Origin: Planctomycetales bacterium
GTDB lineage: Bacteria; Planctomycetota; Planctomycetia; Isosphaerales; Isosphaeraceae
DNA length: 64,000 nt
NCBI GenBank assembly: GCA_027449865.1
Contig: DAIDKV010000056.1
Location: 1 to 64,000 of the forward strand
Reading direction: 5' to 3'
The translations under genes were made by a program, and so were the position numbers. Shown here piece by piece: positions 9,379 through 30,476 of the stretch; position 1 is the stretch's first letter, and each line of letters begins with the position of its first letter. Below the pieces are notes generated by a model. That model searched no databases, was not told the origin of the DNA, and saw nothing but the letters and a program-made list of their open reading frames with translations.

Positions 9379-12300
9379 TCATGGTGGTGGGTTCTCCTGG
9401 GCCTCATGCAAAAGGAGCAAGAAGTCGGGCCAGGCCTCGGGGCGTGAGACGCCTCCGGTGGACGTCCGAGAACAGAGTGCCTCCGACCGCTCGATCCACT
9501 TTCGGGCTTCCTCGGGTCGGCCGAGGGAAGCGGCGATCTGTGCGAGCAAGGGCCAGTTGACGAAGCCCTCGGAGGGATGCTCCGCCAGTCCAAGGGCTCG
9601 ATCGTAGGCTTCCCTGAGGCGACCCGCTCGCAGGTCGGCGAGAGCCTGGGTCGAGGCGGTGCTCCTGTCCTGATCCGCGGAGGGAGGGAGGTCTTTGGCC
9701 ATGACCACGACGGTCGAAGGATCAGCCTTACCTCGACGCGAGAGGATCAACGAGCGGACCAGCGGCCAGCTCGGCGGCTGGCGTCGAGCTGGACCATCGT
9801 CGGCCATCATTCGAGCGCATAGGTCACGATAACCCTGATCATCACCCGTGATCAGGAGGGCTCGGGCATGGCCCAGCCAACCGACGCCCTCGTCGGTCTC
9901 GCCGGATTCGGCCCATTTTCGGTAATCGGCGAGGGCCGCCTGCCAGTCCTCGACCCGCTGGAGCAGCGCCGCTCGGCGGAGCAGGGTGCGGGTATCGGGC
10001 GGTTCGGCGGCTCGGATCTTCGCGAAGTGGAACGAAAATCCCGCGAAATCCGAAGCAATCAGGGCGGATTCGGCGGCGTCGAGGTGGTAGAGGAAGGCGC
10101 GCGCGCCGGCCTCGGCCACGCGCTGGCTCGGGTCGAGAGCAGGAGAAGCGCCGTCCCAGACCGCAACGCTTCCGTCCCAGTTGGTTGAGGCCAGGCGACG
10201 GCCATCGAGGCTCCAGGCGACTCTGGGATTGTAGCCGTCATCACTCTGGCGTCGGCCCCGAATTCGGAGCACGATTAACTCCTCGCCAGTATTCATGTCC
10301 CAGACCATGACCTTCTCGCGGTCGGCACCGGCGAGGCGGCTGCCATCGGGACTGAAGGCTAGTTGGAAGACGGCGAACCGTCCGCTCGATGGTTTCTGGA
10401 CCAAACGCTCGCCGGATCGCGCGGACCAGACCGAGACCAGCCCCTGCAAGTCCGAGGCGGCGATCTTCGTCCCATCGGGGCTAAACGCTATCGCGAGAGC
10501 CATCTCCTGATCGAAGGGAAGTCGGAGCCGGTCCGACCCGCCCCCCGTTATCGGTCGGACCCGAAGAGAGACGCGCCAGGGTTCCTCAGCCGATCGAGGG
10601 GCCTCGTAATCGTCGAAGGCGACCTCGGAACCATCGGGCGAGAAGGCAATCGTCCCCTGCCGGAAGGGTGTCGGGAGTCGTCCGAGGGTCCACGACCCCA
10701 GCCTCCGGCCGGTCTCGACATCCCAGGCCCAGGCACATCGGCGATCAGGGTCGTCCCGAGGCGATGCCATCCCGATCGCGGCGAGGCGCTTGCCGTCGGG
10801 ACTGAGTGCGATCGCATGAGACGAACGGCTGAGCCCTTCCAGGCGAAAATCCCGGCCTGACTCCCGCTCGCGGATCAGGACCGATCGGAGATCGGAACCG
10901 AGCGTCGCCAACCGGCTAGCCTTCTGGTCGAACGCAGCCGTGACCGCGGGAGAGAGAAACGCCTGAGTGACCTCGACGAACGGTTCCGACCGCGTCACCC
11001 CGAGAACTGGATCCCAGCGGACGATCTGTCCCGAAAAGGCCGCGGCTCGCAGGTGAATTCCGTCGGGCTCGAAGGCGATTGCGTGGGCACGGACTGCCGG
11101 CAGCGACTGGTATTCCGGATCGCGCGTGAGGTCCCATACCTTGATGTCACCGATCCGGCGGCCACCGGAGGCGAGAAATCGACCCTGGGGATCGAAGGCG
11201 AGGCAGGCGGCCCGCTCGACGTGGCCTCGAAGGATCAAACGGGCCGCGCCCGTCTGAGCGTCCCAAAGGCGGATGGTGGAGTCGCGGCCGGCGGTGGCGA
11301 CGACCCGGCCGTCGGGGCAGAACGCAACACCGAGCACCGGTCCCTCATGTCCGACGAGATCCCGGGGCGACCGCGCTGAGCCGGGTGTCCAGATCCTCGG
11401 CGGATCGGTCGCCATGACCAGGGAGGCCCCGTCGGGCGAGAAGGCCAGGTTGGGCAATTCACTCTGAAAGTAGTCGGCCCAGTGCCCGTTCCCCGGTCCG
11501 TAGGGCAGTTCGGCGATCGTCGCGCCCGTCTGGGTATCCATCATCGCGACGGACGAGGGTCCGACCACGGCGAAGCGTCGGCCGAGTGGACTAGGGGTGG
11601 CGCGCCCGCCCGGCGAAGGAAAGCTTCGAAGTTCGGATCGATCCTCGAGCCGAACCCAGGCCACCGAGGCTTTTCGGCCGACGATCAAGGCTCGACCGTC
11701 CGGGGTAAAGGCGGCCGTTCCCCCGGCGCTCCATCGGACCGTCTCCCGGCCGGCCTCGACGTCGACCAGCATGACCTCACCGCCGGCCGAACTCACGGCG
11801 AGTCGTCGACCGTCGGGAGAGAAGGAGAGCCGGCAGGCGGCCACCGGACCAGCCAGCCGGACCGTTCGGCGGAAGCCCGGCATCTCGTGGAGATCCACTT
11901 GCGAGGCCGCCTGCGCGGGGTTGCCCCCCGGATTGTTAAACGGATTGATCCGAAGAGCGGCCAGGCGAGATCCATCGGGGCTGAAGACCAAGTCGATCAG
12001 CTCCGTGTACCGGGAATCCTTCTCCTCGAAAAGCGCCGAGTGATTGAGGTTCTGAAGGTAACCCCACTCCCATCCGCGACGGTCAGGCTCAGTCAGGCGG
12101 AGTAGCTCGTCGACATGGTCGACGGCCGAGGCCCGCCACTCCAGTCGGGCGCGGGCGATCCGGCTCACGTAGAGGCTGTCGTGAGCCTCGGCGGCCCTGG
12201 CCTCGGCCCGCCGCCACAGAACGATCGTCGCGGCGAGGCCAAGAGCGACCACCAGAAGAAGCGCGCCGGCGAGCGCGGCCTTGACCGGCTCGCGCCGACA

Positions 12301-13560
12301 CCACTTTCCGGCCAGGCCGAACCACGAGAGCCGGCGGGCCTGGATGGGCAGGCCCTCGGCGAATCTCCGGAGATCCTCGGCCAGGTCCTCGGCCGAGGCG
12401 TAGCGACGCGCCGGCGCCTTCTCCAGGCACTTCAGGCAGATCGTCTCCAGATCGCGCGGAAGTCGGCGGAGCCGGCCGGGCGGGATCGGGTCGTGGTGCG
12501 CGACCTGTTCGAGTGTGGAGAGCGGAGTCTCGCCGAGGAACGGCGGCCGACCCGTGAGCGCGGTGTAAAGGATCGCCCCGAGAGCATAAACATCGGTCCA
12601 CGGCCCGATCGCGTTTCCCGTTCGCGGGCCGGTCTGCTCGGGTGCCATGAAACTGGGGGTGCCGAGGATCATCCCGGTCCGGGTCAGGCCGCCATCCTCG
12701 CCGAGGAGCTTGGCCAGGCCGAAGTCGGTGATCTTGGGCTGACCATCTGAGCCGATGACGACGTTGGCCGGCTTGAGATCGCGATGGACCACCCCGCGAG
12801 CATGGGCGAAGTGTGCGGCCCTCGCCAGTGTCTCGACCAGATTCGCGGCCTCCGCCGGAGGAATCGGTCCACCGGCGATCCGCTCCTGCAAGCTGCCGCC
12901 CGGGACGAACTCCAGCGCGAGGAAGCCGCGGCCCCCGTGCTCGCCGACCTGATAGAGCGGAACCAGATTCGGATGCTGGAACCGCGCGGCGACCTCGGCT
13001 TCGGCCCAGAACCGCGCGGCGACCTCGGCGTCGGCGAAGAGTCCCGGTCGAATCACCTTCAGCGCCACGAGCCGGTTCAGACCGACCTCTCGGGCTCGAT
13101 AAACGACTCCCATCCCCCCTCGGCCGATCTCTTCCAGGACCTCGAAGCCAGGAATCTCGGGAGGCGACTCGATTTCGGCGCCGAAAAACTGCGGAAGCTC
13201 CTGAGGATCGAGACGCGTGGACTCGGTTCCCTGAAGCGCTCGATGCATCTCGATCTGACGGCCGAGCCGGTCGGCCAGATCGGGGAACCGGCAGGCCAGG
13301 TCGTGGCCCGCGTCCCGGTCGCCGAGTGACTCGCGGACGAGGAATTCGTTGTAGACCAGCTCGAAGAGCGCCTCGTCGTTTTCCGAGAGTTGAGGATGAA
13401 GGTCCAGGTAGCCCTCGACCCGCGCAGGTTTCCCCTCGCGCCACTGCTCGATCAGGTTGGCGCAGAGGCGATCGCTGAGGGTGGAGGTCTCCTGGCCGGG
13501 TATCTGGGGATCGTCCGTCGGGTCGATCACGGTGGCCGGTTCCTCCGGCGAGTCGCTCAT
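9379..13560 (-). CDS. Membrane serine/threonine protein kinase with WD40 propeller
   Basis: 1393 residues. Residues 28-110 are the helical N-terminal region common to planctomycete kinases. The kinase domain covers ~139-400: glycine loop GRGGMGVVYRA (147-157), Lys168 in VALKVI, catalytic H259-R260-D261 in HRDLKPAN, D279-F280-G281, and TPSFMAPEQ. A transmembrane helix follows (~430-455). The outer part carries about 12 WD40-type repeats with FSPDG/LAFSPDG motifs and clear WD tails (TIRLWDAQTG, VAVWDG), then a C-terminal TPR-like region (~1220-1385). A ligand-sensing propeller outside with a kinase inside is the expected layout. GAGGG lies 7 bases before the ATG. It starts 90 bases after the ECF sigma gene, the usual ECF-kinase pairing of this phylum. 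Confidence 0.95.
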   Translation of the reverse strand: MSDSPEEPATVIDPTDDPQIPGQETSTLSDRLCANLIEQWREGKPARVEGYLDLHPQLSENDEALFELVYNEFLVRESLGDRDAGHDLACRFPDLADRLGRQIEMHRALQGTESTRLDPQELPQFFGAEIESPPEIPGFEVLEEIGRGGMGVVYRAREVGLNRLVALKVIRPGLFADAEVAARFWAEAEVAARFQHPNLVPLYQVGEHGGRGFLALEFVPGGSLQERIAGGPIPPAEAANLVETLARAAHFAHARGVVHRDLKPANVVIGSDGQPKITDFGLAKLLGEDGGLTRTGMILGTPSFMAPEQTGPRTGNAIGPWTDVYALGAILYTALTGRPPFLGETPLSTLEQVAHHDPIPPGRLRRLPRDLETICLKCLEKAPARRYASAEDLAEDLRRFAEGLPIQARRLSWFGLAGKWCRREPVKAALAGALLLVVALGLAATIVLWRRAEARAAEAHDSLYVSRIARARLEWRASAVDHVDELLRLTEPDRRGWEWGYLQNLNHSALFEEKDSRYTELIDLVFSPDGSRLAALRINPFNNPGGNPAQAASQVDLHEMPGFRRTVRLAGPVAACRLSFSPDGRRLAVSSAGGEVMLVDVEAGRETVRWSAGGTAAFTPDGRALIVGRKASVAWVRLEDRSELRSFPSPGGRATPSPLGRRFAVVGPSSVAMMDTQTGATIAELPYGPGNGHWADYFQSELPNLAFSPDGASLVMATDPPRIWTPGSARSPRDLVGHEGPVLGVAFCPDGRVVATAGRDSTIRLWDAQTGAARLILRGHVERAACLAFDPQGRFLASGGRRIGDIKVWDLTRDPEYQSLPAVRAHAIAFEPDGIHLRAAAFSGQIVRWDPVLGVTRSEPFVEVTQAFLSPAVTAAFDQKASRLATLGSDLRSVLIRERESGRDFRLEGLSRSSHAIALSPDGKRLAAIGMASPRDDPDRRCAWAWDVETGRRLGSWTLGRLPTPFRQGTIAFSPDGSEVAFDDYEAPRSAEEPWRVSLRVRPITGGGSDRLRLPFDQEMALAIAFSPDGTKIAASDLQGLVSVWSARSGERLVQKPSSGRFAVFQLAFSPDGSRLAGADREKVMVWDMNTGEELIVLRIRGRRQSDDGYNPRVAWSLDGRRLASTNWDGSVAVWDGASPALDPSQRVAEAGARAFLYHLDAAESALIASDFAGFSFHFAKIRAAEPPDTRTLLRRAALLQRVEDWQAALADYRKWAESGETDEGVGWLGHARALLITGDDQGYRDLCARMMADDGPARRQPPSWPLVRSLILSRRGKADPSTVVVMAKDLPPSADQDRSTASTQALADLRAGRLREAYDRALGLAEHPSEGFVNWPLLAQIAASLGRPEEARKWIERSEALCSRTSTGGVSRPEAWPDFLLLLHEAQENPPP

Positions 13561-15373: not shown

Positions 15374-18300
15374 ATGGATCGAACACCGGAGAAGAAGTCG
15401 AGAAATGCATCTCGGAAGGGAGGGCTCCCGCGCCGAGGCCGGGGCCTGTCTCGCCGCCTCGCTGTGGAGGCCCTGGAGCCTCGCTTGCTGCTCTCCATCT
15501 CCAATCTTGCCCTCGCGACGCTGGCGCCCGTGGAGGGTCAGACCTTCCTGGCCTTCGACGGTTCGCCCGGGTCGCTCCTCGCCACGTTCTCGGATGCCGC
15601 TGGGCTCGGACCGAATGACTTCGCGGCCACGCTTCAATGGGGAGATGGCCGCTTCGATATCGATCTGGATCACGGTGGTAATATTTTCATCATGGAGGAC
15701 GCCGCCGTCCCCACACAGTACGACGTCTACGACCTCGTCGGGCATATCTACGCCGAGGAAGGAACGCCGGGGAACCTCGCGCTTTCCGTCACCGAGACCA
15801 CCACGACCCCCAAGAGCGCGGCCACGGTGAGTCAGCCGATCACGGTCGCCGATGCGCCGCTCTCGGCTTCTGCTGTCTCGACGATCCATCCGATCGAGGG
15901 AGTTTCCTTCACCGGAACACTCGCCACATTCGCCGACACGGATCCGGGCGGTCGGCTCGGTGAATACTCGGCGACGATCGACTGGGGGGATGGCACGACG
16001 TCGGCCGGCATCGTGACCCAGCCGGCTGGTCCCGGACATTCCTTCGCCGTGACCGGGTCGCATGCTTATGCGGAATCCGGTTCGGGTTCGAGCGGCAAGA
16101 ATCCCTCGTTTCCGGTGACGGTGACCCTCGTCGATACCGACGGCCTGAGCCCGCCGGGTGGAACCCGGGCAACGGCGACCGTCCAGGATACGGCCGTGCT
16201 GGGGGACGCGAGCCTCACGGCGATCCCGCTGATTGTCCCGTTCACGGCGAGCGAAGGAGTGAACGCCGCGGGCGTGGTCGCGACCTTTAGCGATGCCAAC
16301 CCGGGCAGCACAACGGCCGACTTTTCCGGGACCATCCAGTGGGGCGATGGCACCACCTCGGCGTTTGACTCCTCGATGATCCGGCCGGCCTCGCAGTCAG
16401 CCAGCTCGGCCAGCTTCAATGTCTTCGGGGCCCATGTCTACGCCGCGGCGGGAGCCCTTCCGCTCTCGGTGACGATCAACGACGCCGAGGGCTCGTCGGT
16501 GGTGGCGAACAGCACGGCAACGGTGGCCGATGCTCCGCTCTCCGCGCCCACCTTCGCGATCTCGGCGACACAAAGTCTCGCGTTTACGGGAACCGTGGCC
16601 ACCTTCTCGGATGCGAATCCGGCGGGGCAGGTGGGGGATTACTCGGGGACCATTCACTGGGGCGATGGGACCACCTCGGCGTTGACCTCAGCCGATTTCA
16701 GCCTCGTCTCGCGGACCCCGTCGCAGGCGCGATTCGCGATCTCGGCGACACACACCTACACCCGGGACGGGATCTTCTCGTCGGCCAATGGAGATCCGGT
16801 GCAGGTCACGGTCAATGACCAGGGCGGGGCGTCTCTCTCGATCACGGGGACGGCAACCGTCGCCGATGCCCCGATCACCCTCGCAACGTCGACCGTTTCA
16901 CCCGCGCCGGTCGAGGGCGCCTCGTTCACCGCGACTGTGGCGACGTTTACGACTCCCAACGCCCTGGCCGTACCCGCCGGATTCGCCGCGATGATCAGTT
17001 GGGGCGACGGCACGCCGCCGACCGCCGGAGTCATCTTGCAGCCAGGCGGCGCCGGGACGCCGTTTGAGGTTGTGGGGACGCACATCGATGGCGAGGAAAC
17101 CAAGCCCGGCTCGCCGGAGAGCGCCGTGGTCACGGTGATCGATATCGGCGGCAGCCCACAGGTTCCCCCGTCAACCGGAACCGTCGTCACGGCGATCGCC
17201 GCGGTCGATGCACCTTTGAGCGGCTCCGTGGCCGCGATCACGGGCAGTTCCGGGCTCCCCCTGAGTGGAATCGTCGCGACCTTCCAGGATGGAAATCCCC
17301 TGGCTCCGCTCTCGGATTATCCGGCCGGCTCCGTGAGCATCGACTGGGGCGACGGAACCACCTCCGCCGGAAGCGTGACCCAGCCGGGCGGGGTCGGGAC
17401 GCCGTTCGAAGTTTCCGGGGCCCACACCTACATCGCGCCCGGGGTTTACAACGTGCGGGTCACGGTCGAGGATGCGGGCGGGGCCCAGGTTGTTTTGGAG
17501 GACTCCGCCCAGATCGCGGTCTCGCCGCTGCTGGCGACCCCGATCGATGCATCGGGGGTCGAGGGCGCCTCGCTCTCCTCGATCGTGGCGAGCTTCGTCA
17601 ATGCCAACCCGTTCTTCGCACCCGGCGATCCGGCCGGCTCGGCCTACTCGGCGACGATCGATTGGGGCGATGGGACCACGTCGAGCGGGACCATCCAGCC
17701 CGATCCGAAGAACCTGGGCCGGTACGAAGTCGTCGGGCAGCATCTCTATACGGAGGACGGCGTCTACACCGACCGGATCGCGATCACCGACACACAGGGC
17801 GCCCGACCGACCGGCCCGGTCGTTGGGACGGTGACCGTGCAGGATGCGCCCCTCTCCGGGACATCGGTGACATTTTCGCCGACCGAGGGGCTCGCGTTCA
17901 CCGGAACGGTGGCCACCTTCACCGACGCCAACCCCGGCGCCCAGGCCGGCGATTATGCGGTCTCCATCGACTGGGGCGATGGTACGCCCGGCCACCCGGA
18001 TCTCAGCCCCGGGACGGTGAGCCAGCCGGGTGGTCCTGGGACGCCGTTCGCCGTTTCCGGGACACATACTTATGCTCAGGAAGGGACGTATCTTCCCGTT
18101 TCGGTGACGATCACAGACGGCGGTTCGAGCGCAGGCACCGTGACCGCGATTCCGCGCTCGGTCGCGGTCGTAGCAAGCCGGGCGGTGGTTCAGGACGCGC
18201 CGTTGACCGTCGTCACCAACCCTTATCCCGTGGTTTCGGTCGAGGGTTTGCCCTTCGCGGATACCTTCCCGCGGCAGTATCCGGGGGCCGGCGTGGTGGT

Positions 18301-20707
18301 CGCGACGTTCACGGATGCCGACCCACTGCCCTATGCGAGCGGCAACCTCTCGGGCTACAACGCCACGATCCTCTGGGCGCCTGGTGCCGCGACGGCGGGA
18401 ACCATCGTCGCGGATCCGACGATTCCGGGCCGATTCGATGTGCTGGGCCAGTACACCTACAGCGCTCCGGGGAGGGAGCCGATCCAGGTTTTCCTCGGGG
18501 ATATTGGAGGGAGCACGGCCCTGGCGTCGAACACCGCCACGGTGAACGACGCGCCACTCTCGTCGAGTCCGGCCGGGTCGGCGGCCTCGCCGCTGCTCTC
18601 GGTGGAGGGCTCGACCTTCACCGGGATCGTCGCACGGTTTCAGGACGCCTCGCCGATGGGGACGATCGGCGACTACTCGACCGCGATCGACTGGGGCGAC
18701 GGAACCACCTCGACAGGGAAGGTTGTCTCCGACCCGAGCCTGGGCGGCTTCGCGGTGGTCGGGTCGCATGCGTATGCCGAGGATGGGAATTTCACGATCG
18801 CGGCGACAATTTTGGCCACCGATGTCCCCGCGCCGCTGAGCCCGGCGTCGACCTCGACGTCGACGCCGGTACGCGTTCTCGATGCGGCGATGACGGCCAG
18901 TCCGGCGGTGCCGCCGGCCTGGACCGAGGGGATCGCGCCGGCGTCGCCGGTGGTTCTCGCGACCTTCACCGACGCCGATCCCAACGCAGTGCCCGGCGAC
19001 TACTCGACCACGATCGACTGGGGTGACGGGACGACCTCCGCCGGAACGGTCGTGGCGGCGAGCACACCGGGCGAGTTCGAGGTACTGGGGAGCCACACCT
19101 ACGCCGAGGACGGAACGCCGACGGCCAGCGTCCAGATTGTGGATACCGACGCGGAACAGTCGGCGCCCCGGCCATCGACGATCCCAGCCTCCGAGGCCGC
19201 TGTTTCCGTCCCGCTCTCGGTCATCGACGCGACGCTGACCGCCTGGCGTCCGTCCGCGCCCACGCCCGAGGTTGCGGGGCAAGCCTTCACCGACCTGCAG
19301 GTGGCGATGTTCTCCGACGCCGATCCGGGAGCCGTCGCGGGGGATTATACCGTGACCATCGACTGGGGCGACGGCACGACGCCGACACCGGGTCGAGTGG
19401 TTCCCGCCGGCGCCGGCAACACGTTCGAGGTTCTCGGATCCCACACGTACGCCGAGGGATCTCCGGTCGGGTCGCCTTATCGTGTCACGGTCCAGATTGC
19501 CGATACCGATGGGGAACTCGCGAGCCCTCCGCCGGTTGGACGCTCGTCGGCCGCGGTCGTCGATCCGATCGCCGTGTCCGGCCCGACGATTCAGTTGAAG
19601 GCCGCGACCGTCGTGGGCGGCGTCGAGGGGATCGCTGGACCGATTGTCCTGGCGACGCTCACAGCCGCCGACCCGAAAGCGGCGGCGGGGGATTACTCCG
19701 GAACGATCCACTGGGGCGACGGCACCATCTCGCCCCTGACCGTCGCCAACTTCGTTCCCGCGGCCAGTACGCCTGGATCGTTCCTTGTGGTCGGGACGCA
19801 TGGCTACGCCCAGGCAGGAACGTACTCCGCCGTCGTCCAGGTCTCCGAAGCAGCCGGGAACGAGCCGGCATCCAGCTCGAGTGCCACGTTAACGGCCACA
19901 ATCCCCGTGGCCGCTTCGCGTCTGGCCGCGTCTGGAGTGGCCGAGGCCGCGTACGTGGGATTTAGCGAGATCGGTCCGGTCGCCACCTTCTCGGTAGACG
20001 GAGCCCCGACACTCGCCTCGGAATACAGCGCTGAGATCCAGTGGGGAGACGGGACATCCTCAATGGGGACCGTCACCGAAAACCCGGCGACCGGGACATT
20101 CTCTGTTGTCGGAACGCATCCGTACAGCCAGGCAGGTACTTATGCCGATCAGGTCATTATTCAGGCGCCTGGAGGATTGACAACAACCGTCCGCGACCTG
20201 ATCATCGTCATCACTCCTCCACCCGCGCCGGAGCCGACGGGCCAGATTTCGCCCGCCTCGGATCCGCCCGCCGGAGGTGCGAGTGGGTCCGGTGGGAGAT
20301 CGATCCCGGCCGGACTGGTCGTGCAGGGGCTGGGACTCTCGTCGGCTCGGTCGCATGTTTTCGGCGGAGTCGTCGCGACGTTCACGGACGGAATCGATCC
20401 GGCTGCCTCGTCGACGTTCGTCGCCACCATCTGGTGGGGAGACGGTCGACACTCCAGGGGGAGTCTCGCTGGGCCATTCGGCTCGGATGGGATTTTTGTG
20501 GTGCGGGGACACCACTACTATACCCATCGGCATGAATTCACGGTGAGGATCACCATCGAGACCGGCGATGGGGCCCGTCGGGCCCTCGCCGAGAGTGACC
20601 TGAACTGGCGGCCACGGCACAGTCCGAAGGTATCGGGCGGGGTGGCCTCTCTGTCGGGCTGGAAGCGAGACTTCTTCTGGCGTCCAGCCTCGAAAACGAT
20701 CCGATGA
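15374..20707 (+). CDS. Giant LEPR-XLL protein with 15 PKD-like WGDG repeats (paralog A)
   Basis: 1777 residues. The ATG has GGAGA about 10 bases upstream. A basic N-terminus (RKGGLPRRGRGLSRR) leads to VEALEPRLLLS, the LEPR-XLL motif found at the start of many very long planctomycete repeat proteins; no ordinary signal peptide is visible. The rest is a chain of ~95-125-residue units, each with an EG..FTG.VATF segment, an IDWGDGTTSAG core, a G.HTYAE.G strand and a V.DAPLS linker. Fourteen units keep WGDG; unit nine has WAPG. The last unit (IWWGDGRHSRG) is followed by a short basic tail. The units resemble PKD/Ig-like beta sandwiches. A surface or matrix protein is likely, without a catalytic domain. 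Confidence 0.9.
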   Translation: MDRTPEKKSRNASRKGGLPRRGRGLSRRLAVEALEPRLLLSISNLALATLAPVEGQTFLAFDGSPGSLLATFSDAAGLGPNDFAATLQWGDGRFDIDLDHGGNIFIMEDAAVPTQYDVYDLVGHIYAEEGTPGNLALSVTETTTTPKSAATVSQPITVADAPLSASAVSTIHPIEGVSFTGTLATFADTDPGGRLGEYSATIDWGDGTTSAGIVTQPAGPGHSFAVTGSHAYAESGSGSSGKNPSFPVTVTLVDTDGLSPPGGTRATATVQDTAVLGDASLTAIPLIVPFTASEGVNAAGVVATFSDANPGSTTADFSGTIQWGDGTTSAFDSSMIRPASQSASSASFNVFGAHVYAAAGALPLSVTINDAEGSSVVANSTATVADAPLSAPTFAISATQSLAFTGTVATFSDANPAGQVGDYSGTIHWGDGTTSALTSADFSLVSRTPSQARFAISATHTYTRDGIFSSANGDPVQVTVNDQGGASLSITGTATVADAPITLATSTVSPAPVEGASFTATVATFTTPNALAVPAGFAAMISWGDGTPPTAGVILQPGGAGTPFEVVGTHIDGEETKPGSPESAVVTVIDIGGSPQVPPSTGTVVTAIAAVDAPLSGSVAAITGSSGLPLSGIVATFQDGNPLAPLSDYPAGSVSIDWGDGTTSAGSVTQPGGVGTPFEVSGAHTYIAPGVYNVRVTVEDAGGAQVVLEDSAQIAVSPLLATPIDASGVEGASLSSIVASFVNANPFFAPGDPAGSAYSATIDWGDGTTSSGTIQPDPKNLGRYEVVGQHLYTEDGVYTDRIAITDTQGARPTGPVVGTVTVQDAPLSGTSVTFSPTEGLAFTGTVATFTDANPGAQAGDYAVSIDWGDGTPGHPDLSPGTVSQPGGPGTPFAVSGTHTYAQEGTYLPVSVTITDGGSSAGTVTAIPRSVAVVASRAVVQDAPLTVVTNPYPVVSVEGLPFADTFPRQYPGAGVVVATFTDADPLPYASGNLSGYNATILWAPGAATAGTIVADPTIPGRFDVLGQYTYSAPGREPIQVFLGDIGGSTALASNTATVNDAPLSSSPAGSAASPLLSVEGSTFTGIVARFQDASPMGTIGDYSTAIDWGDGTTSTGKVVSDPSLGGFAVVGSHAYAEDGNFTIAATILATDVPAPLSPASTSTSTPVRVLDAAMTASPAVPPAWTEGIAPASPVVLATFTDADPNAVPGDYSTTIDWGDGTTSAGTVVAASTPGEFEVLGSHTYAEDGTPTASVQIVDTDAEQSAPRPSTIPASEAAVSVPLSVIDATLTAWRPSAPTPEVAGQAFTDLQVAMFSDADPGAVAGDYTVTIDWGDGTTPTPGRVVPAGAGNTFEVLGSHTYAEGSPVGSPYRVTVQIADTDGELASPPPVGRSSAAVVDPIAVSGPTIQLKAATVVGGVEGIAGPIVLATLTAADPKAAAGDYSGTIHWGDGTISPLTVANFVPAASTPGSFLVVGTHGYAQAGTYSAVVQVSEAAGNEPASSSSATLTATIPVAASRLAASGVAEAAYVGFSEIGPVATFSVDGAPTLASEYSAEIQWGDGTSSMGTVTENPATGTFSVVGTHPYSQAGTYADQVIIQAPGGLTTTVRDLIIVITPPPAPEPTGQISPASDPPAGGASGSGGRSIPAGLVVQGLGLSSARSHVFGGVVATFTDGIDPAASSTFVATIWWGDGRHSRGSLAGPFGSDGIFVVRGHHYYTHRHEFTVRITIETGDGARRALAESDLNWRPRHSPKVSGGVASLSGWKRDFFWRPASKTIR
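15500..20580 (+). repeat. Protein-level tandem repeat array A (15 WGDG units)
   Basis: The WGDG cores occur roughly every 300-370 bases, first near 15637 and last near 20434. Repeats are diverged at DNA level, so they are old rather than recently expanded. Unit nine, near 18360, has YNATILWAPG in place of the core. Confidence 0.9.
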
Positions 20708-21782
20708 GCCGTGACCGGCCCCAGGGAAAGGGCCGACTCAACACACCCGCGCGATCCCGAATGGGGTGACAGCCGCGGAGTCGTCGTGCGTGACCGTGTC
20801 TCGGGGCCGTCGGGATTTCTCCCGTCGATTCTCGAAAACCGGGGAAAAGCGCTCATGTCGCCGCCAGGCGTGGGCCAACCACGGTTTTTTTCATGATGAT
20901 GTTCTGAGAAGGGAAACCTGAGCTTATCACGAGCCGCCCGAGGTCCCGGAAGCCTCGGGCTGGCACGCAGCTCGAAAAAAGCCGGTGGTATTTCGTCGAA
21001 ACGGCCCGCGACCCGGCTACTTCGACGGCCGTGGACGGTGCGCGCATCGCTACAATGTAACATTTCGTGGCGAACAAGCGGCCATTTTATTTGATTCACA
21101 CTGAATGTGCGCCTGAGACCGCGTACGTCCGGAGATTCCACGTATTTTCTCCCGGTTTTCGAATAGCATGTACACCGAGATTAATCAGAGACAAATCCGA
21201 GTACAGCCATTCGAAATCTGTTCGAAACTGATATTGACGAGAAGAGGCCGGCGCGGTTCTATAGGCGAGCGCGTTTAGTTCCGAACCACGCGGTATGACC
21301 GAAACGTCCACCAGAGGTGTTGTCGAGGTGGCCGCCCGGGAGACAGAGGGGCGATCATCGCGGCGACTATAAGACGTGTCGAGGTGACGTCGCGAGAGAT
21401 CCGGGGAGCGAACATCAGGGACGATGACCACGGTTTGGCGGGGCTCTTGCCATCGGCCCTGTCACCGAGGGCTTCGCCGTCGCCCGGTAGGTTGATTCCA
21501 GGAAGAAGAAAGCTGAATCCTGGGATCGAGGAGCGGCGTGCCTCGCGCTGGACCATGACAAGGAGTGAACCCGGCTCAAGGGGGCGGCCGGACCCACACT
21601 GATCGGCACTGGCCAGGGTGTGGAAGGTGAGGATCGCCGCGCAGGAAGCGCACGCGGGCCCCGTCGGATTGGTCGAAAATCGGTCGGTCGGATTGAAAAT
21701 CCATCTGAGGCGATGGCCGTGGATTGTACGCGCCGGGCTTACCGGCCGGGCGTTCGCGGCCTCACAACCGAGGGTCAGTCAC
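20708..21782. other. 1-kb spacer between the two giant genes; no gene seen
   Basis: No recognisable gene. Near its left end is the hairpin at 20716-20735. The piece 21040-21250 is A+T-richer and is the likeliest promoter region for paralog B. A reading frame runs from 21618 into paralog B, but its first 55 residues look like untranslated leader (see that entry). Confidence 0.5.
20716..20735 (+). terminator. Candidate terminator hairpin after giant gene A
   Basis: CGGCCC (20716-20721) pairs with GGGCCG (20730-20735) around an 8-base loop, 8 bases after the stop. No T-run follows, so a rho-independent terminator is only a possibility. Confidence 0.35.
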
Positions 21783-24700
21783 ATGCGTCAGAACAAGAAT
21801 TCGCGGGCGAATTTCTTCGATTCTCGCCGGCGCCGCGGCACGCGCCCCAGGCGAGACATGATTCGCGTCGATGCGATCGAGCCGCTCGAGACGCGGTCGC
21901 TGATGACCATTACCAACCTCGCGTTCACACCGCCGCTTAATCCCGTGGAAGGGCAGAATTTCGGCAACGTTTCGCCGATCGCTACCTTTACGGACTCCGC
22001 CGGTCTGAATCTGTCCAATTTCTCGGCCGTGCTCCAGTGGGGCGACGGCGGGATCGATACAGATGTCCTCAACGGTGGGACCGTCCTCATCATGGAGGAC
22101 ACCTTAATCCCCACGCAGTACGACGTCTACGACCTGACCGGGCACACCTACCAGGAGGAGGGGACGCCAGGGAACATCGCTCTTTCGGTGACGGAGACTT
22201 CTTCGATCGGCTCCGCCCCCAACTCGGCCTCGATCAGCCAGCCGATCACGATCACCGATGCGCCTCTGAGCGCTACCAACGTGGGGACCATCCATCCCAC
22301 CGAGGGGCAAGCCTTCACGGGTACACTCGCGACGTTTACCGACACGGACCCGAACGGTGTTCTGGGAGAGTACGCGGCGAACATCAACTGGGGCGACGGC
22401 CAGTCCTCGGTCGGCGTGATCACTCAGCCGGGCGGAGCGGGACACGCCTTCGTCGTGACGGGAACGCACACGTTCGCCGAGGAAGGGACGTTCAGCGCGA
22501 GCAATACGCCGCCGAACCCGGTCTCGGTCACGATTGTGGATACCGACGGACACAACCCGCCGGCCGGAACCCGCGCGACGGCCACGGTGACCGACACGGC
22601 GATCGTGGGCGACGCCACCCTGACGCCGCTCCCCCTGACAACGCCGTTCACGTCAACGGAGGGCTCGGCGGGCACGGGCGTGGTCGCGACCTTTAGCGAC
22701 GCGAACCCGAGCGCGCCCGTGACGGACTTCTCGGGGACGGTCAACTGGGGCGACGGCCAGACCTCGGCGTTCTCCTCGGCCAACATTCAGGTTGTCTCGC
22801 GATCGGCGACACAGGCGATTTTCAACGTCCAGGGGCTCACCCATACGTATGCCGAGGCAGGCAGCCCAACGATCAGCGTGAAGATCAACGACATCGGCGG
22901 CAGCTCGACCACGTCGACGAGCCAGGCCACGGTGAACGACGCGAAGCTGCTCGCCTCGGGAACGACAATCAGTGGCGCGGTCGAGGGGACCAACGGCACC
23001 TTCAAGGTGGCGACCCTCATCGACTACAATCCGAACGCGCCGACCTCCGACTTCTCCGGGACGATTAACTGGGGCGACGGTCAGACCTCGGCGTTCGGGC
23101 CAGGTGACGTCACGCTGGTGGCGCGAGGCACGTCGGTCTCGGTTTTCACGATCAGCGGTTCGCATGCGTTCGTCGAGGATGGGGATTACAACACGGCCAA
23201 CGGCAATCCCATTAGTGTGTCGATCAACGACGTGGACGGTTCCACAACGTCGGCCACTTCCTCGGCGACCGTCGCGGATGCCGCGCTTCACGCATCTTCG
23301 ACCATCGGTAGCACGGTCGAGCAGGGGACGTTCAGCGGGACCGTAGCGACCTTCACCGACGCCGATCAGTTCGGTCAGATCGGCGACTACACGGTTTCGA
23401 TCAACTGGGGCGACAGCTCCACACCGACGGCGGGGGTGGTTACCCAGCCGGGTGGTCCTGGGCATGCGTTTGTTGTCAGCGGCTCGCACCTCTACGCCGA
23501 GGAGGGCTCGTACAACGTCACGGTGCAGATCACCGATACCGATCAGCACCTGCCGGCTGTCCCGGGCGTGGCGCGTTCGAGCGCCACGCTGACCACGCCG
23601 ACGGTGATCACGGTCAGCGACGCGCCTCTGTCGCCGGGCCCGGCCGTTTCCCCGCAGCCGATCATCGCCTACGCGGGCCTGCCCGCGGGCTCGCCGCCCA
23701 ACGGCCAGCTCATGGCGATCTTCAACGACACGAATGCCAAGGGAACGCTCAGCGACTTCCCGCTCGGCAGCCAGATCATCAACTGGGGCGACGGGACGAC
23801 CTCAACGGCGACCGACGTCACCCAGCCGGGCGGGGTCGGTACAGCGTTCTATGTCTACGGGATGCACACCTACAACCCGACCATGGCGCTCCCCGTGACG
23901 TACAACGCCAGCGTCTCGATCAACGATGTGGGCGGGCAATCGCTCAGCATCTCCGACCAGGTGAAGGTCGAGGTGGCCCCGCTGCTGGCGACGCCCATTC
24001 CGATCAACACGACCGAGGGCGTGGCGCTCACGAATGTGGAGGTGGCGACGTTCGTCAATGCCAACCCGAATCCTCCGGCCGGAACGACCTATTCCGGGAC
24101 GATCAACTGGGGCGATCCCTACAATGGATTCAGCTCGGCAGCGTCGATCGTGGCCGATCCGTACGTCGCGGGACAGTACGACGTCTACGGGACCTACACG
24201 CACGGCTACACCGAGGCCGGGATCTTCTCGGCGACGGTCTCGCTCAGCTCCTCGCAGGGCGCGACGGGTTCGGCGAACGTGAAGGCCACCGTACAGGATG
24301 CAGCCCTGACCGGCTCTCCGGTCACATTCAAGCCGACCGAGGGTCTCTCGTTCACCGGGACCGTGGGCACGTTCACCGATGCCGATCCTTACAGCGCGGC
24401 CTCGGACTACGCGATCACGATTCACTGGGGAGACGGTCAGACCTCCAGCGGGACCGCGGTTCCCGACCCGAATCCGGCGGTCGGATACGACATCACCGGC
24501 ACCCATACCTACGCCGAGGAAGGGACGTATACCGGTGTCACGATCAGTATCTCCGAGAACGACCTGCCGACCCCGCCGCCGGTGACCCCGGCCAGCACCA
24601 CGATCTACAACAGCACGGCGATCGTTCAGGACGCCCCGCTGACGATCACCAGCATGCCCTCGATGTCGACGGTCGAGGGGAAGGCTTTCCCCGACGCCTT

Positions 24701-27401
24701 CCCGACGCAGTACCCGGGTCTCGGAGCGCTGGTTGCAACCTTCACCGACGCGAATCCGATTCCGGGAAATGCCACGCCGCCGGACGCCTCCGATTACAAC
24801 GCGACGGTCGTCTGGAGCGGGACACTCAGCAACCCCATCATCGCGACTCCTGGAACGGTGGTCGCCGATCCGAATGTTCCAGGCCAGTTCGACGTGCTCG
24901 CCAATTACACTTATCCCGAGGACGGTGTTTATTCACCGACCGTACTGATCGGTGATATTGGCGGCAGCACGGCGATTCAGACCGGCAGCAACGAGGTCAC
25001 CGTCAAGGACGCCGCGCTGCATCCGGTGAGCACGCCCGCGAATCTCTCGGTTGAGGGCGCGACCTTCACCGGAGTGGTGGGCTCGTTCACCGACGATGAC
25101 CCGCACGGCCTGCCGGGCGCGAACGGCGACTACACGGCCGTCATCAATTGGGGCGACGGCCAGACCTCGGACGGAACGATCACCCAGCCCGGTGGGCCGG
25201 GTACCGCGTTCCAGGTCATCGGTACTCACGCCTATACCGAGGATGGCGTCTTCAACCAGCCGAATGGGAATGCGGTCACGGTGACGGTCACCGACACCGA
25301 TCAGCACCTGACCTCGACGCCGGCTGTTCCCCGCTCGACAGTCACGCTACACTCGGCGATGACCGTGAGCGATGCCCCGCTCATGGCCGTGGCGAACCCG
25401 TCGCTCCCGGCCGCGACCGAGGGGGCGCTTTATGCCCCGGTCGCTCCTCTGGCGACTTTCACCGACGCGGATCCCAACGGGCAGACTGGCGACTACACCG
25501 CGACGATCACCTGGGGCGACGGCCAGACCTCGACGGGGACCGTCGCGGCCGATCCGAACATCGCCGGCCAGTTCGACGTCACCGGGAGCCACCTCTTCGT
25601 TGAGGACGGTGTCTTCAGCGGCACCAGCACCCCGCCGTTCTCGGTGACGATCACGGATACGGATCAGCACCTGTCATCGACTCCGGCCGTGCCGCGGGCC
25701 ACGGTGACGGTCAATCCGACAGTGGTGGTCAACGACGCGCCGCTCTCCTCGACCGCGACGACCATCGCCGCGCAGACCGAGGGCAATACCTTCACGGTCG
25801 AGATCGGCACGTTCACCGACGCCGATCCCAACGGCCAATTTGGCGACTACACGGTGACGATTTCCTGGGGCGACGGCGCGACCTCGACGGGCAGCCTCAC
25901 GCAGCCCGGCGGGCCCAACACGCCGTTCGTCGTTTCGGGAACGCACACCTACGCCGAGGAGCGCCCGAACGGCTCGCTGAGCGGCCCGGGCAGCCTGCCT
26001 TACCAGGTGACCGCCCAGATCACCGACACCGATCAGCACCTCGGCACCCCGCCGTCGGTGCCTCGGTCGACGACCAGCATCGTCAATACGATCGCGGTCA
26101 ACGACGCCGCCATCTCGCTCACCCCGACCACCGGCACCACCGTGACCGAGGGCAGCTCGTCCAGCATCACGCTGGCGACGCTGGTCGACGGCGACAAAGG
26201 CGGCAATCCGGGCGATTACGCCGGGACCGTCACATGGGGCGACGGATCGACCTCGGCGCTGAGCGCGTCGAACTTCGTTCCGGTCCTCGATGGGAACGGC
26301 CATCCAATCCCTGGCCACTTCTATGTCGAGGCGACTCACAATTACACCGAGGAGAGCCTGCACCAGCCCACGGGCAAGTTCGTGGCCTCGGTTCAGGTGT
26401 GGGACACCGACGGAATCCGGCCGACCTCCGGCTCGACCGTGACCGCGACGGCAAGCCCGGCGATCCTGGTGAACGACGCGGCTCTGACCTCGACCGGCAC
26501 GGCCCAGACCTTCACGAGCACCGAAGGCGCCTCGACCGGCAGCATCGGGGTCGCGACGTTCCAGGACGCCAATACGTCCGCTCTCAACGAGGTCCCGCCG
26601 TCTCCGGGCGCGGACTACACGGCCGTCATCAACTGGGGCGACGGCAGCACGTCGGCGGGCTCGGTCCAGCCGGCGAACAACGCCGGGCTCTTCAACGTCT
26701 ATGGTACCCACACGTATACTGGCGAGAATACGGCGGGTTACCAGGTCTCGGTGACGATCACCGACGACGGCGGTCAGAGCACCGTCGCGAACAACACGAC
26801 CGTTATCGTCAAGGACGCGTCGCTGACGGGTCTCAACCCGCCGACCTACCCCTCGACGAATATCCCGCTGACGACCGGGGTCAACTCGAACGCGATCTCT
26901 GTCGGACAGTTCGTCGATGCGGATCCGAACGGCGGGGTCTCGGATTACACGGCGACGATCTACTGGGGAGACGGCTCGTCGTCCGCGGCGTCGAACTTCG
27001 TGACGTCGCCCTCGCCGATCGGGGATCCTCCGGGAACCCTGGTGAACGTGATCGGGAGCCATACGTACGCCCGCAAGGGTTCGTACCGAATCCTGGTTCT
27101 CGCCTACGACTCCGACGGCGGACCGACCGCGGGCACTCCGTTCGCGGTGATTTACAACTCAACGGCGATCGTCACCGATCCGCCGAGCGGCACCACCTCG
27201 ATCTCGCTGACGAGCCGGACGATCGGCGTTTCGCCTCTCGTCCAGACAACCGCCAGCACCACGCCAAGGACGACCACGACATCCCCGACGGCCGTGGTCG
27301 ACGCCGCCCTCAGCGCGATCGTCGCCCAGGGAACGACCGTGGGCCAGGACGGCTCCTCAGCGCTTGGCGTGCAGAAGAAATCACTGGCGCTCATCGGCTG
27401 A
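21783..27401 (+). CDS. Giant WGDG-repeat protein (paralog B)
   Basis: 1872 residues from the ATG at 21783 (MRQNKNSRANFF), which has GAGGG 8 bases upstream; the frame is open back to 21618 but that part lacks protein character. A basic stretch (SRRRRGTRPRRD) precedes VDAIEPLETRSLMT, a variant of the LEPR-XLL motif. Fifteen repeat units follow, with cores such as INWGDGQTSAF and INWGDGSTSAG. Unit five has WGDSS, unit seven WGDPY and unit nine WSGT. First-unit sequences match paralog A closely (PTQYDVYDL.GH.Y.EEGTPGN.ALSVTET in both). A Thr/Ser-rich tail ends the protein, unlike the basic tail of paralog A. Likely secreted or surface-anchored. Confidence 0.9.
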   Translation: MRQNKNSRANFFDSRRRRGTRPRRDMIRVDAIEPLETRSLMTITNLAFTPPLNPVEGQNFGNVSPIATFTDSAGLNLSNFSAVLQWGDGGIDTDVLNGGTVLIMEDTLIPTQYDVYDLTGHTYQEEGTPGNIALSVTETSSIGSAPNSASISQPITITDAPLSATNVGTIHPTEGQAFTGTLATFTDTDPNGVLGEYAANINWGDGQSSVGVITQPGGAGHAFVVTGTHTFAEEGTFSASNTPPNPVSVTIVDTDGHNPPAGTRATATVTDTAIVGDATLTPLPLTTPFTSTEGSAGTGVVATFSDANPSAPVTDFSGTVNWGDGQTSAFSSANIQVVSRSATQAIFNVQGLTHTYAEAGSPTISVKINDIGGSSTTSTSQATVNDAKLLASGTTISGAVEGTNGTFKVATLIDYNPNAPTSDFSGTINWGDGQTSAFGPGDVTLVARGTSVSVFTISGSHAFVEDGDYNTANGNPISVSINDVDGSTTSATSSATVADAALHASSTIGSTVEQGTFSGTVATFTDADQFGQIGDYTVSINWGDSSTPTAGVVTQPGGPGHAFVVSGSHLYAEEGSYNVTVQITDTDQHLPAVPGVARSSATLTTPTVITVSDAPLSPGPAVSPQPIIAYAGLPAGSPPNGQLMAIFNDTNAKGTLSDFPLGSQIINWGDGTTSTATDVTQPGGVGTAFYVYGMHTYNPTMALPVTYNASVSINDVGGQSLSISDQVKVEVAPLLATPIPINTTEGVALTNVEVATFVNANPNPPAGTTYSGTINWGDPYNGFSSAASIVADPYVAGQYDVYGTYTHGYTEAGIFSATVSLSSSQGATGSANVKATVQDAALTGSPVTFKPTEGLSFTGTVGTFTDADPYSAASDYAITIHWGDGQTSSGTAVPDPNPAVGYDITGTHTYAEEGTYTGVTISISENDLPTPPPVTPASTTIYNSTAIVQDAPLTITSMPSMSTVEGKAFPDAFPTQYPGLGALVATFTDANPIPGNATPPDASDYNATVVWSGTLSNPIIATPGTVVADPNVPGQFDVLANYTYPEDGVYSPTVLIGDIGGSTAIQTGSNEVTVKDAALHPVSTPANLSVEGATFTGVVGSFTDDDPHGLPGANGDYTAVINWGDGQTSDGTITQPGGPGTAFQVIGTHAYTEDGVFNQPNGNAVTVTVTDTDQHLTSTPAVPRSTVTLHSAMTVSDAPLMAVANPSLPAATEGALYAPVAPLATFTDADPNGQTGDYTATITWGDGQTSTGTVAADPNIAGQFDVTGSHLFVEDGVFSGTSTPPFSVTITDTDQHLSSTPAVPRATVTVNPTVVVNDAPLSSTATTIAAQTEGNTFTVEIGTFTDADPNGQFGDYTVTISWGDGATSTGSLTQPGGPNTPFVVSGTHTYAEERPNGSLSGPGSLPYQVTAQITDTDQHLGTPPSVPRSTTSIVNTIAVNDAAISLTPTTGTTVTEGSSSSITLATLVDGDKGGNPGDYAGTVTWGDGSTSALSASNFVPVLDGNGHPIPGHFYVEATHNYTEESLHQPTGKFVASVQVWDTDGIRPTSGSTVTATASPAILVNDAALTSTGTAQTFTSTEGASTGSIGVATFQDANTSALNEVPPSPGADYTAVINWGDGSTSAGSVQPANNAGLFNVYGTHTYTGENTAGYQVSVTITDDGGQSTVANNTTVIVKDASLTGLNPPTYPSTNIPLTTGVNSNAISVGQFVDADPNGGVSDYTATIYWGDGSSSAASNFVTSPSPIGDPPGTLVNVIGSHTYARKGSYRILVLAYDSDGGPTAGTPFAVIYNSTAIVTDPPSGTTSISLTSRTIGVSPLVQTTASTTPRTTTTSPTAVVDAALSAIVAQGTTVGQDGSSALGVQKKSLALIG
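21919..27175 (+). repeat. Protein-level tandem repeat array B (15 WGDG-type units)
   Basis: First core near 22037, last near 26965. The order of distinctive units (long first unit, 'PLLATPI' unit seven, degenerate unit nine) is the same as in array A. Confidence 0.9.
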
Positions 27402-27694: not shown

Positions 27695-29161
27695 ATGAGA
27701 TCCGACGTCTCTCTGACGATGATCGTGAAGGATGAAGAAGCCAATCTGGCGACCTGCCTCCGATCGGTCGCGGATCTGGTGGGAGAGATCGTCATCATCG
27801 ATACCGGCTCGGTCGATCGAACGCGTGAGATCGCGCTGGAATTTGGAGCCCGAGTTCACGATTTCCAGTGGATCGACGACTTCTCGGCAGCCCGGAACGA
27901 GGCGCTCGATCGGGCTCGAGGCCGCTGGATCCTCTGGCTCGACGCCGACGAGCGATTCGACGCCGATGGACGACGTCGGCTCGCCTCCCTGCTCGAAAGC
28001 CTGGGCGACGAGTCGGCCGGTTACATCATGAATCAGGTCTGCCTCAGGCAATCGACGCTAACCGGCCCGATCCGCCACGATGACAAGCTCGTTCCGCAGG
28101 TTCGGCTGTTCCCGCGCTTGCCGGGGATTCGATGGGAGCACCGCGTCTACGAGCAGATCTCGCTCTCGATCCGCCGTGTTGGAGGCCGCCTGCGCGAGAC
28201 CGACATCGAGATTCAGCACCCGGGTTATGAGGATCCAGAGCTTCATCGCCGGAAGATCGAGCGGAATCTGCGTCTGGCGAGGATGGAGTCACTGGAGCGG
28301 CCCGTCGACCCGTACGTCCAGTACACGCTCGGCCTCTTCCTTGAGATGCTCGGCGACGACGAGGCCGCACTCTCTCCACTCCGGCGATCGCTCGGACTGG
28401 TCAGCGTGGGAGCCTCGTACGGGCCGAAGCTCTTCGCGATCACGACCCAGGCCCTCCTTCGGACCGCCGGGCCCCACGAGGCCCTCGCCGTCTGCCGAGC
28501 GGGCCGCGAACGGTATCCCGAGAATGAGGAGCTGCGGGGCCAGGAAGCTTACCTCCTCCCCGAAGCTCATGACCTGCCCGGAGCCGAGGTCCTCCTGCGT
28601 CGGCTTGCAACCCGGCCAGGGATCTACCCGGCCTCGCTGGAGGCGGATCTCACGCGATTCGCCCGCCATCACCTGGCGATTCTCTGTCGAAATCTTCGAC
28701 GGTACTCCGACGCCGAGGTCCACTGGCGCCAACTTCTCGATGAGGCGCCTGGTTTCGCCCGAGGTTGGCTTGAACTGGGAGAGCTGTATCTGTCGATCGG
28801 ACGATGGCCCGACCTGGAGCGCGTCGCCCGGCACGTCGACTCTCACCTTGGAAGGCCGGAGGACGCGGCGGTTCTCCGGTCGCGCGGGATGCTGGCTCGC
28901 CACGAATTCGACCAGGCCCGAGAACTGCTGCTCCGGCTCATCGACATGGTCCCTCAGGCGCTGCGGCCCCGACAGGCCCTCAGCCACGTTCTTCTCCTGG
29001 AGGGGCGCGACCCGGCCGCCGCCGAACGGGCCCTACTGGATGTTCTGAAGATCGAGCCCAACGACGCTCAGGCGGCCCGGAACCTGGAAATCCTCCGGGA
29101 TCGACTGCGCGACCGCCGGCGCGATGTCATCATGGCCGAAGGCGCCGAGTCCCGAGGATGA
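27695..29161 (+). CDS. Family 2 glycosyltransferase with TPR-like C-terminal half
   Basis: 488 residues, AGGGG about 6 bases before the ATG. Residues 5-200 are a GT2 domain of the SunS/TPR-associated type: SLTMIVKDEEANLATCLRSV, IIDTGSVDRT, then FSAARNEALDRARGRWILWLDADE (the DXD-like metal site is DAD) and RLFPRLPGIRWEHRVYEQI. Residues ~220-480 are helical TPR-like repeats (YVQYTLGLFLEMLGDDEAAL, HWRQLLDEAPGFARGWLELGELY, ALLDVLKIEPNDAQAARNLE). Such GT2-TPR enzymes transfer sugars to proteins or peptides in several systems. It is followed by the GT4 gene after 7 bases, so the two are one operon. Proximity to the giant proteins suggests them as acceptors, which is inference. Confidence 0.9.
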   Translation: MRSDVSLTMIVKDEEANLATCLRSVADLVGEIVIIDTGSVDRTREIALEFGARVHDFQWIDDFSAARNEALDRARGRWILWLDADERFDADGRRRLASLLESLGDESAGYIMNQVCLRQSTLTGPIRHDDKLVPQVRLFPRLPGIRWEHRVYEQISLSIRRVGGRLRETDIEIQHPGYEDPELHRRKIERNLRLARMESLERPVDPYVQYTLGLFLEMLGDDEAALSPLRRSLGLVSVGASYGPKLFAITTQALLRTAGPHEALAVCRAGRERYPENEELRGQEAYLLPEAHDLPGAEVLLRRLATRPGIYPASLEADLTRFARHHLAILCRNLRRYSDAEVHWRQLLDEAPGFARGWLELGELYLSIGRWPDLERVARHVDSHLGRPEDAAVLRSRGMLARHEFDQARELLLRLIDMVPQALRPRQALSHVLLLEGRDPAAAERALLDVLKIEPNDAQAARNLEILRDRLRDRRRDVIMAEGAESRG

Positions 29162-29168
29162 TCGACCC

Positions 29169-30476
29169 ATGGAGATCCTTTTCGTTCATAAAGAGTATCC
29201 CGGGCAGTACGGCCAGATCGCACACTCGCTGGCCGAAAGTCATGGGCATACCTGTACCTTCGCCTATTCGCGGATCGCCGACCGGCACCAGAAGGCGCTC
29301 ACGGACGGCCGACCGGTGAATCTGCCGCTCGGGGGCCTCGAGCGGTCGGAGATACCAGCGCATGTTGGGGCAAACGGCGACCTGGTTTATCGGGGAGTCC
29401 GGCTAATTCCCTATCGTGCGCGGGGAGCCTCCGGGCAGACGCATTCCTGCGGGCTTCACTTCGAGATCTCGATGTGGAACAACCAGGGTGCGCTCGATGC
29501 GGTCCGGGCTCGGCCGGAGATCCAGCCCGACCTGATCGTCGGCCACTCGTTCTTCGGCAATGCGCTGTTCCTGGCAGACCATTTCCAGTGTCCGATGCTC
29601 ACCTATTGCGAGTATTTTTACCGCCCGCGAGGCTCGGAACTGGACTTCCGCCCCGAGTTCCCACCGACGGACCACGATCGTCGGATGCACCGGACCTACA
29701 ATGCCACGACCCTACTGAACCTCGAAGCGGCCAGGGCCGGACTCAGTCCGACCGAGTGGCAGCGGAGCACATTTCCCGCCGAGTACCGGCCGAAAATCCG
29801 GACCATCTTTGATGGAATTGATCGGACATTCTGGTATCGCCGAAAGGCTCCATTGCGCTCCATCGCCGGGCGTCCGATCCCCCCCACGACACCGGTCGTG
29901 ACCTATGTCGCGTACGGATTCGAGCCGACGCGAGGCTTCGATATTTTCATGCGAGTTGCCGCCCAGATCTCCGCGGCTCGCGACGATGTGATTTTTGTCG
30001 TCGTGGGTGCCGATCGGACGTATTACGGGCGAGCCTCCAACGACCCCTCCGCGCCGACATTCCGCGAGCAGGTTCTCGCCGAGCGCCCCTACGACCTGAA
30101 CCGCTTCCTCTTCACCGGCCAGGTGCTGGAGGAGGACCTGGTGCGAATCCTTGGTCGGAGCGATCTCCATATTTACCTGACAACGCCGTTCGTCCTGAGC
30201 TGGTCGATGATGAACGCCCTGGCCTGTGGCTGCACCGTTCTGGCGTCGGCAACTCCCCCGGTTCTGGAGATGATCGCGCATGGAGAGAACGGCCTGCTCG
30301 CCGCGTTCGACGACGTGGATGGACTCGCCGAGGAAGCGCTCCGCGTTCTGGACAACCCCGAAGCCTTTCGTCACCTCGGCCAGGCCGCGGAACGAATGAT
30401 CGACGAGCGGTACAGCGTCAACGCCGTCTTGCCACGAATCGCCTCACTCTACGAGGAGATCGCCCGATCGGCCTGA
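29169..30476 (+). CDS. GT4-like glycosyltransferase
   Basis: 435 residues from the ATG at 29169 (MEILFVHKEYPGQYGQ), 7 bases after the previous stop, with GAGGA ~10 bases upstream. GT-B fold: an N-terminal Rossmann domain with LIVGHSFFGNALFLAD and CEYFYRPRGSELDF, then TTLLNLEAARAGLSPTEWQRSTFP, and a C-terminal half with FEPTRGFDIFMRVA, VFVV-type FVVVGADRTYYG, FTGQVLEEDLVRILGRSDLHIYLT and the nucleotide-sugar site SWSMMNALACGCTVLAS (Glu of the usual E-x7-E is not obvious). It is cytoplasmic by sequence, and probably acts with the GT2-TPR protein on a common acceptor. Confidence 0.9.
   Translation: MEILFVHKEYPGQYGQIAHSLAESHGHTCTFAYSRIADRHQKALTDGRPVNLPLGGLERSEIPAHVGANGDLVYRGVRLIPYRARGASGQTHSCGLHFEISMWNNQGALDAVRARPEIQPDLIVGHSFFGNALFLADHFQCPMLTYCEYFYRPRGSELDFRPEFPPTDHDRRMHRTYNATTLLNLEAARAGLSPTEWQRSTFPAEYRPKIRTIFDGIDRTFWYRRKAPLRSIAGRPIPPTTPVVTYVAYGFEPTRGFDIFMRVAAQISAARDDVIFVVVGADRTYYGRASNDPSAPTFREQVLAERPYDLNRFLFTGQVLEEDLVRILGRSDLHIYLTTPFVLSWSMMNALACGCTVLASATPPVLEMIAHGENGLLAAFDDVDGLAEEALRVLDNPEAFRHLGQAAERMIDERYSVNAVLPRIASLYEEIARSA

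Follow-up and report, generated by a model that had tools for sequence, protein, structure and literature searches.

A tandem pair of giant PKD-array genes in a planctomycete, probably copied whole with an atypical ninth unit

Planctomycete genomes can hold up to 60 giant genes (>5 kb), which are often annotated as cell-surface proteins (PMC5352709). Among solved structures, the folds closest to a model of the ninth repeat that we describe here are the PKD domains (PF00801, or PF18911 for PKD_4) of the clostridial collagenases ColG and ColH. Regarding the evolution of repeat arrays in general, Schaper and colleagues reported that most tandem repeats of human proteins have kept their unit number and order since distant speciations, and that conservation is higher for longer repeat units (PMC3995336). 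A third point of comparison is the LEPR-XLL family of N-termini (NF012209), for which a literature search found nothing on topic.

In this work, we have analysed a stretch of 64,000 nucleotides from a bacterium of the Isosphaeraceae (hereafter, the window), where two adjacent giant genes, A (5.3 kb) and B (5.8 kb), lie on the same strand (Table 1). A preliminary description of this DNA had presented them as colinear duplicates with 15 repeat units each, and both open reading frames were indeed found in place, with 15 W-centred units in either protein. Units measure from 98 to 127 aa, and a W-x-GDG-type signature occupies the core of 14 of the 15 units of A and 12 of the 15 of B. The first unit, previously characterised as long, falls inside that range (118 aa in A and 116 aa in B), and it is the ninth that carries an insert. 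Nor is the loss of GDG peculiar to unit nine, at least in B, where units 5 and 7 also deviate and bring the non-GDG units to three. Protein A scores above the Pfam cut-offs for both PKD_4 (47.9 bits, cut-off 27) and PKD (32.2 bits, cut-off 23.5), whole-protein B gives no Pfam PKD match at E 0.01, and, of 31 units taken singly from the two proteins, nine match PKD_4, although weakly. The N-terminus of A matches the LEPR-XLL model (20.9 bits, cut-off 17), whereas B, which reads LETRSLM, does not, even though this region of B aligns with A; by a simple pattern search, further PKD proteins of the family also have a LEPR-like motif. The C-terminal tails are dissimilar, each of them being kept in a sister ortholog.

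Table 1. Coordinates of genes A and B, their distinctive parts and their neighbours in the window
Feature	Position	Strand	Basis and remarks
Ser/Thr kinase with WD40 repeats, upstream neighbour	9379..13560	-	Pfam
Gene A, 1777 aa	15374..20707	+	ORF; LEPR-XLL-type N-terminus, 15 PKD-type units, basic/aromatic C-terminal tail; SGWKRDFFWRPASKTIR
A LEPR-XLL motif, AVEALEPRLLLS	15458..15496	+	NCBIfam NF012209, best stretch residues 29-41
A unit 1	15497..15850	+	Unit cut; its tree partner is B unit 1, 100/100
A unit 9, WAPG replacing WGDG, FPRQYPG-containing insert ahead of the Trp	18194..18547	+	Its tree partner is B unit 9, 99/98
A units 14-15	19910..20584	+	Long branches; without specific likeness to B units 14-15
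Terminator-like stem-loop and T-run, A-B intergenic	20869..20891	+	Scan and L044 alignment; weak evidence
Gene B, 1927 aa	21618..27401	+	ORF; paralog of A by colinearity; LETRSLM N-terminus, 15 PKD-type units, Ser/Thr-rich tail
B unit 5, WGDS replacing WGDG	23277..23618	+	Unit inspection
B unit 7, WGDPYNG replacing WGDG	23976..24296	+	Unit inspection
B unit 9, non-canonical WSGTLSNPIIATPGT	24630..25007	+	FPTQYPG insert common with A unit 9
Two glycosyltransferases, downstream neighbours	27695..30476	+	Pfam

The reading frame of B opens with a GTG at 21618, and an ATG at 21783 (residue 56) is the likelier start, because it aligns with the start of A and is followed by a basic stretch and a LEPR-like motif of the same kind as in A. 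The DNA from the GTG to the ATG is indel-free in the intergenic alignment (L044) with the same-genus genome G018, so that B may have an N-terminal extension. Indels are likewise absent from the whole stretch 21620-21790, which, unlike the intergenic DNA further upstream, is strongly conserved in G018 and would correspond either to a conserved leader or to such an extension. Separate transcription of the two genes is hinted at by the terminator-like element that follows A and that G018 retains in sequence. The regions upstream of A and B showed no similarity to each other, and hence no common promoter or leader was seen; neither Rfam matches nor tRNA genes were found in the window.

Our comparisons confirm A and B as colinear duplicates. 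BLASTP of one protein against the other returned a single colinear alignment (812/1824 identical, 45%, 1132 bits). When both proteins were cut into units, the mean identity reached 48% for units at the same position (i-i pairs), versus 38% for A-B pairs at different positions, 39% among the units of A and 40% among those of B, and the mean unit score was 231 in register 0 and 116-144 in all other registers from -7 to +7, with the sum of the i-i scores lying 8.9 standard deviations above 20,000 random pairings. The expectation that unit i of A would group with unit i of B in a tree was borne out for seven units (1, 2, 3, 6, 7, 9 and 13), the other eight of the 15 pairs being left without resolution; a second unit tree was built with the ortholog units added. 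AU tests rejected none of those eight i-i pairs (p 0.10-0.73), and units 4, 5, 8, 10, 11 and 12, taken as a block, still favour the i-i pairing (p 0.004).

The sequence landmarks that had suggested this correspondence are largely where they were said to be. The V.PLLATPI motif sits at the join of units 6 and 7 in both proteins, and unit nine shows WAPG in A and WSGT in B together with the F.D.FP.QYPG segment. VVATFSDANP occurs in unit 3 of both, but inside the unit, ahead of WGDG, and not after it. In the window, A and B alike carry PTQYDVYDL in their first unit, although the motif is not general to B: at the positions of B unit 1 that encode it (22116-22142), the G018 ortholog (L044) reads STSTYDVFDF, with the differences clustered locally.

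Five genomes of the same genus were searched, and, besides that of the window itself, two of them (G017 and G018) contain orthologs of both genes, as fragments; no A/B-type pair was found in G016 and G019. The A orthologs are 88% identical and gap-free over the covered N-terminal parts (1152 residues) and 80% identical in the C-terminal part, and the B orthologs of G017 and G018 are 85-88% identical. Pieced together from contigs, the gene order kinase, A, B, glycosyltransferase is kept in both genomes: orthologs of the upstream kinase adjoin A on the same contigs (C791 in G017, C285 in G018), the end of A and the start of B share one contig of G018 (591, L044), and the first glycosyltransferase follows B in both (C112 in G018, C356 in G017). 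That two related genomes share the pair in this order indicates that the duplication predates those species, and the quartet site patterns over units 1-3 give 201 sites for the A|B split expected from duplication before speciation, and 10 and 4 for the alternatives. A duplication older than the divergence of the sampled species is therefore supported by these comparisons. The single-copy ancestor proposed earlier as something to look for in relatives did not appear, either as a 15-unit gene in 45 genomes of the family or order, or, with patterns of units 1-3, in a contig set of 84,980 species, and no colinear homolog came from the family or from that set. Two side observations can be added: unit 3 of A (16205-16528) has a dS of 0.22 between A orthologs, below that of every other unit (0.29-0.65), and a 585-aa ORF without a Pfam match (30452-32206, minus strand) is flanked by the glycosyltransferases on one side and by a sulfatase gene on the other.

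Unit nine is special in both arrays. Its conserved Trp stands at residue 60-61 in both proteins, compared with 43-56 in all 28 other units, owing to the insert that includes the common F.D.FP.QYPG stretch. This Trp is retained but GDG is lost, with APG standing in its place in A and SGTLSNP in B, two replacements that differ from each other. The unit is rightly called degenerate as far as the motif goes. It had also been called defective, which does not agree with an AlphaFold2 model of the unit (with the other units as alignment), where a PKD sandwich is predicted with a pLDDT of 91.7, nor with its low dN/dS. In the model, a strand at 55-62, ending in WA, turns straight into a strand at 65-68 at PG; PKD domains of ColH and ColG top the list of the closest solved folds, with a Z of 8.7 over 83 aligned residues and an rmsd of 2.2 for ColH PKD 4u6t. 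Between A and its G018 ortholog, purifying selection acts across the array and most strongly on unit nine, which is the most conserved unit (94.9% identical) and has the lowest dN/dS (0.053, against 0.085-0.255 elsewhere). It shows 6 replacements in 118 residues, against 131 in 993 elsewhere (p 0.011 uncorrected, from one ortholog pair and for a unit named beforehand, a value that fails correction over all units). The assemblies of G017 and G018 lack the middle of B, unit nine included, and the constraint thus refers to A only. These data support a ninth unit that is constrained rather than decaying, and make a special role for it plausible, on modest evidence. The candidate explanation of a decaying repeat was rejected on the low dN/dS and the folded model. 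A model of units 8-10 places three sandwiches in a row, with cadherin rods as the best Foldseek matches, whose TM-scores are too low for a claim on domain angles or on a kink.

The constancy of the array had been considered unusual for tandem repeats, an impression that does not hold, given that domain-sized repeats are normally stable and that colinearity is also seen among other PKD giants of the family. As a local control, we compared three other pairs of PKD giants from the same family (L089/L090, L096/L097 and L091/L094), and all were colinear: 55% over 2188 columns for G008 and G007, 54% over 1780 for G009 and G010, and 48% over 3081 for G026 and G006, which belong to different genera. 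Non-GDG units are found in place here as well, as WGNG/WGNG and WGAG/WGTG in G026/G006 and WGNG/WGNG in G008/G007. Stability is imperfect, since the G026 protein has extra units missing from that of G006. Across these pairs, WGNG, WGAG/WGTG and WGDP stand at fixed positions, and there may be a family-wide class of atypical units.

The best account, which we regard as probable, is that A and B are tandem paralogs, born from the whole-gene duplication of a PKD array that already carried the atypical ninth unit. How much of the array was copied is a separate matter. The preliminary description had the ancestor at 15 units, of which 13 in register, the odd ninth among them, are shown by our comparisons; exactly 15 lacks demonstration because units 14 and 15 cannot be matched and would correspond by position only. 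Their A-B identities (28% and 32%) are even below the 38% mean of the non-matching A-B pairs, and the register test gives them no i-i preference (p 0.49). It is thus possible, if on the doubtful side, that only units 1-13 descend in step and that, in one of the genes, another PKD gene replaced the two C-terminal units with the tail or served to rebuild them, the count of 15 being partly a coincidence. The tails are dissimilar and A units 14-15 have the longest branches of the tree, which speaks for this alternative, but the AU tests leave the 14-14 and 15-15 pairings unrejected, the two proteins have the same number of units, and no donor for the C-terminal end of A appeared in the 45 genomes beyond PKD matches of 65 bits or less (outside the A orthologs, A units 14-15 find generic PKD matches only). 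Far less can be said for the convergence of two independent arrays on 15 units, or for their separate homogenisation, an idea we find scarcely credible. B units 5, 10, 11 and 12 are more alike among themselves than each is to its A partner, which would fit it, yet the register score, the seven i-i pairs that the tree supports, the shared position of the odd unit and the want of long exact matches within A or within B strongly contradict it. Recent homogenisation or exchange between units was also rejected, the longest exact DNA match of any two units being 26 bp. The same four units of B (23277-23618 and 25008-26102) have common endings of the DTDQHL..P.V.RS type.

Two further alternatives concern single units within the duplicated array. 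Part of the A-B likeness of unit 1, PTQYDVYDL included, might come from a short A-to-B gene-conversion tract in the genome of the window, which we judge rather unlikely. The motif is missing from the G018 B, 10 of the 39 changes found only in that protein fall in one 20-codon window, and the A and B of our window share an exact 20-bp tract there; against this, a similar cluster private to the B of the window lies at codons 280-300, so that local rate variation accounts for the unit 1 cluster equally well, and one B ortholog only covers the region. As for unit nine, a dedicated job (a kink, a partner-binding face or a processing site) would explain its conservation, and its insert and non-GDG turn common to A and B, its low dN/dS and few replacements in A, and a unit-nine profile that scored above 200 bits for these two units alone, with the next best at 56 bits, all speak for it. 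However, other PKD giants of the family also keep non-GDG units in place, which makes such units ordinary, the turn at the Trp differs (WAPG in A, WSGTLSNP in B), the model is an ordinary PKD sandwich, and no protease or binding motif was identified, so that we hold this proposal as a doubtful one. A more general form of it, which we deem unlikely, would have certain non-canonical units of planctomycete PKD giants, unit nine of A and B included, fixed as “address” domains with a binding or bending role, surviving gene duplication and speciation as neighbouring canonical units drift.

Under the whole-gene duplication that we favour, one ancestral gene with a multi-domain PKD array, atypical ninth unit included, would have been duplicated end to end. 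The number of units may have stayed fixed because domain-sized units that are only ~40% alike offer little substrate for unequal recombination. LEPR-XLL-type N-termini would direct the export of both proteins, which on the surface of the cell or in its extracellular matrix would make up long rods of Ig-like beads, with unit nine as a structural PKD bead that has its own loop surface and not as a dead repeat. From the LEPR-XLL N-terminus of A, the PKD domains and what is known of PKD arrays and planctomycete giants, predicted exported rod-like proteins in adhesion or matrix are the most likely reading. The distinct conserved tails and the fast-diverging units 14-15 suggest paralogs specialised at their C-terminal ends, where the dissimilar units and tails may provide A and B with different attachments or partners. 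The locus is a clean example of the whole-gene duplication of a giant array and, together with the three other pairs, shows that planctomycete PKD arrays retain the order of their units and even the odd ones among them. Positionally conserved non-GDG units would make a short list of domains that possibly carry the specific functions of these otherwise uniform surface giants.

Among described systems, the PKD domains of ColG and ColH are akin to the units of A and B, as seen in the Pfam scores of A and the match of the unit-nine model to 4u6t. Units of A and B are nevertheless longer (~113 aa, versus ~86 aa in 4u6t and 4aqo), come in arrays of 15 and have WGDG at their core instead of WDFGDG, and unit nine lacks GDG and has an extra loop. 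The LEPR-XLL proteins resemble A, and B departs from them. The CPR pilus protein PamR, RbmA-like (NF058578), was rejected as an identity for A, which reaches 110.2 bits over five stretches, far under the cut-off of 300, the matched parts being PKD-like units. Finally, A and B resemble the giant genes of planctomycetes (PMC5352709) in size class, lineage and repeat content, and differ from them as a tandem duplicate with a common atypical unit, built on PKD arrays that fall outside that account.
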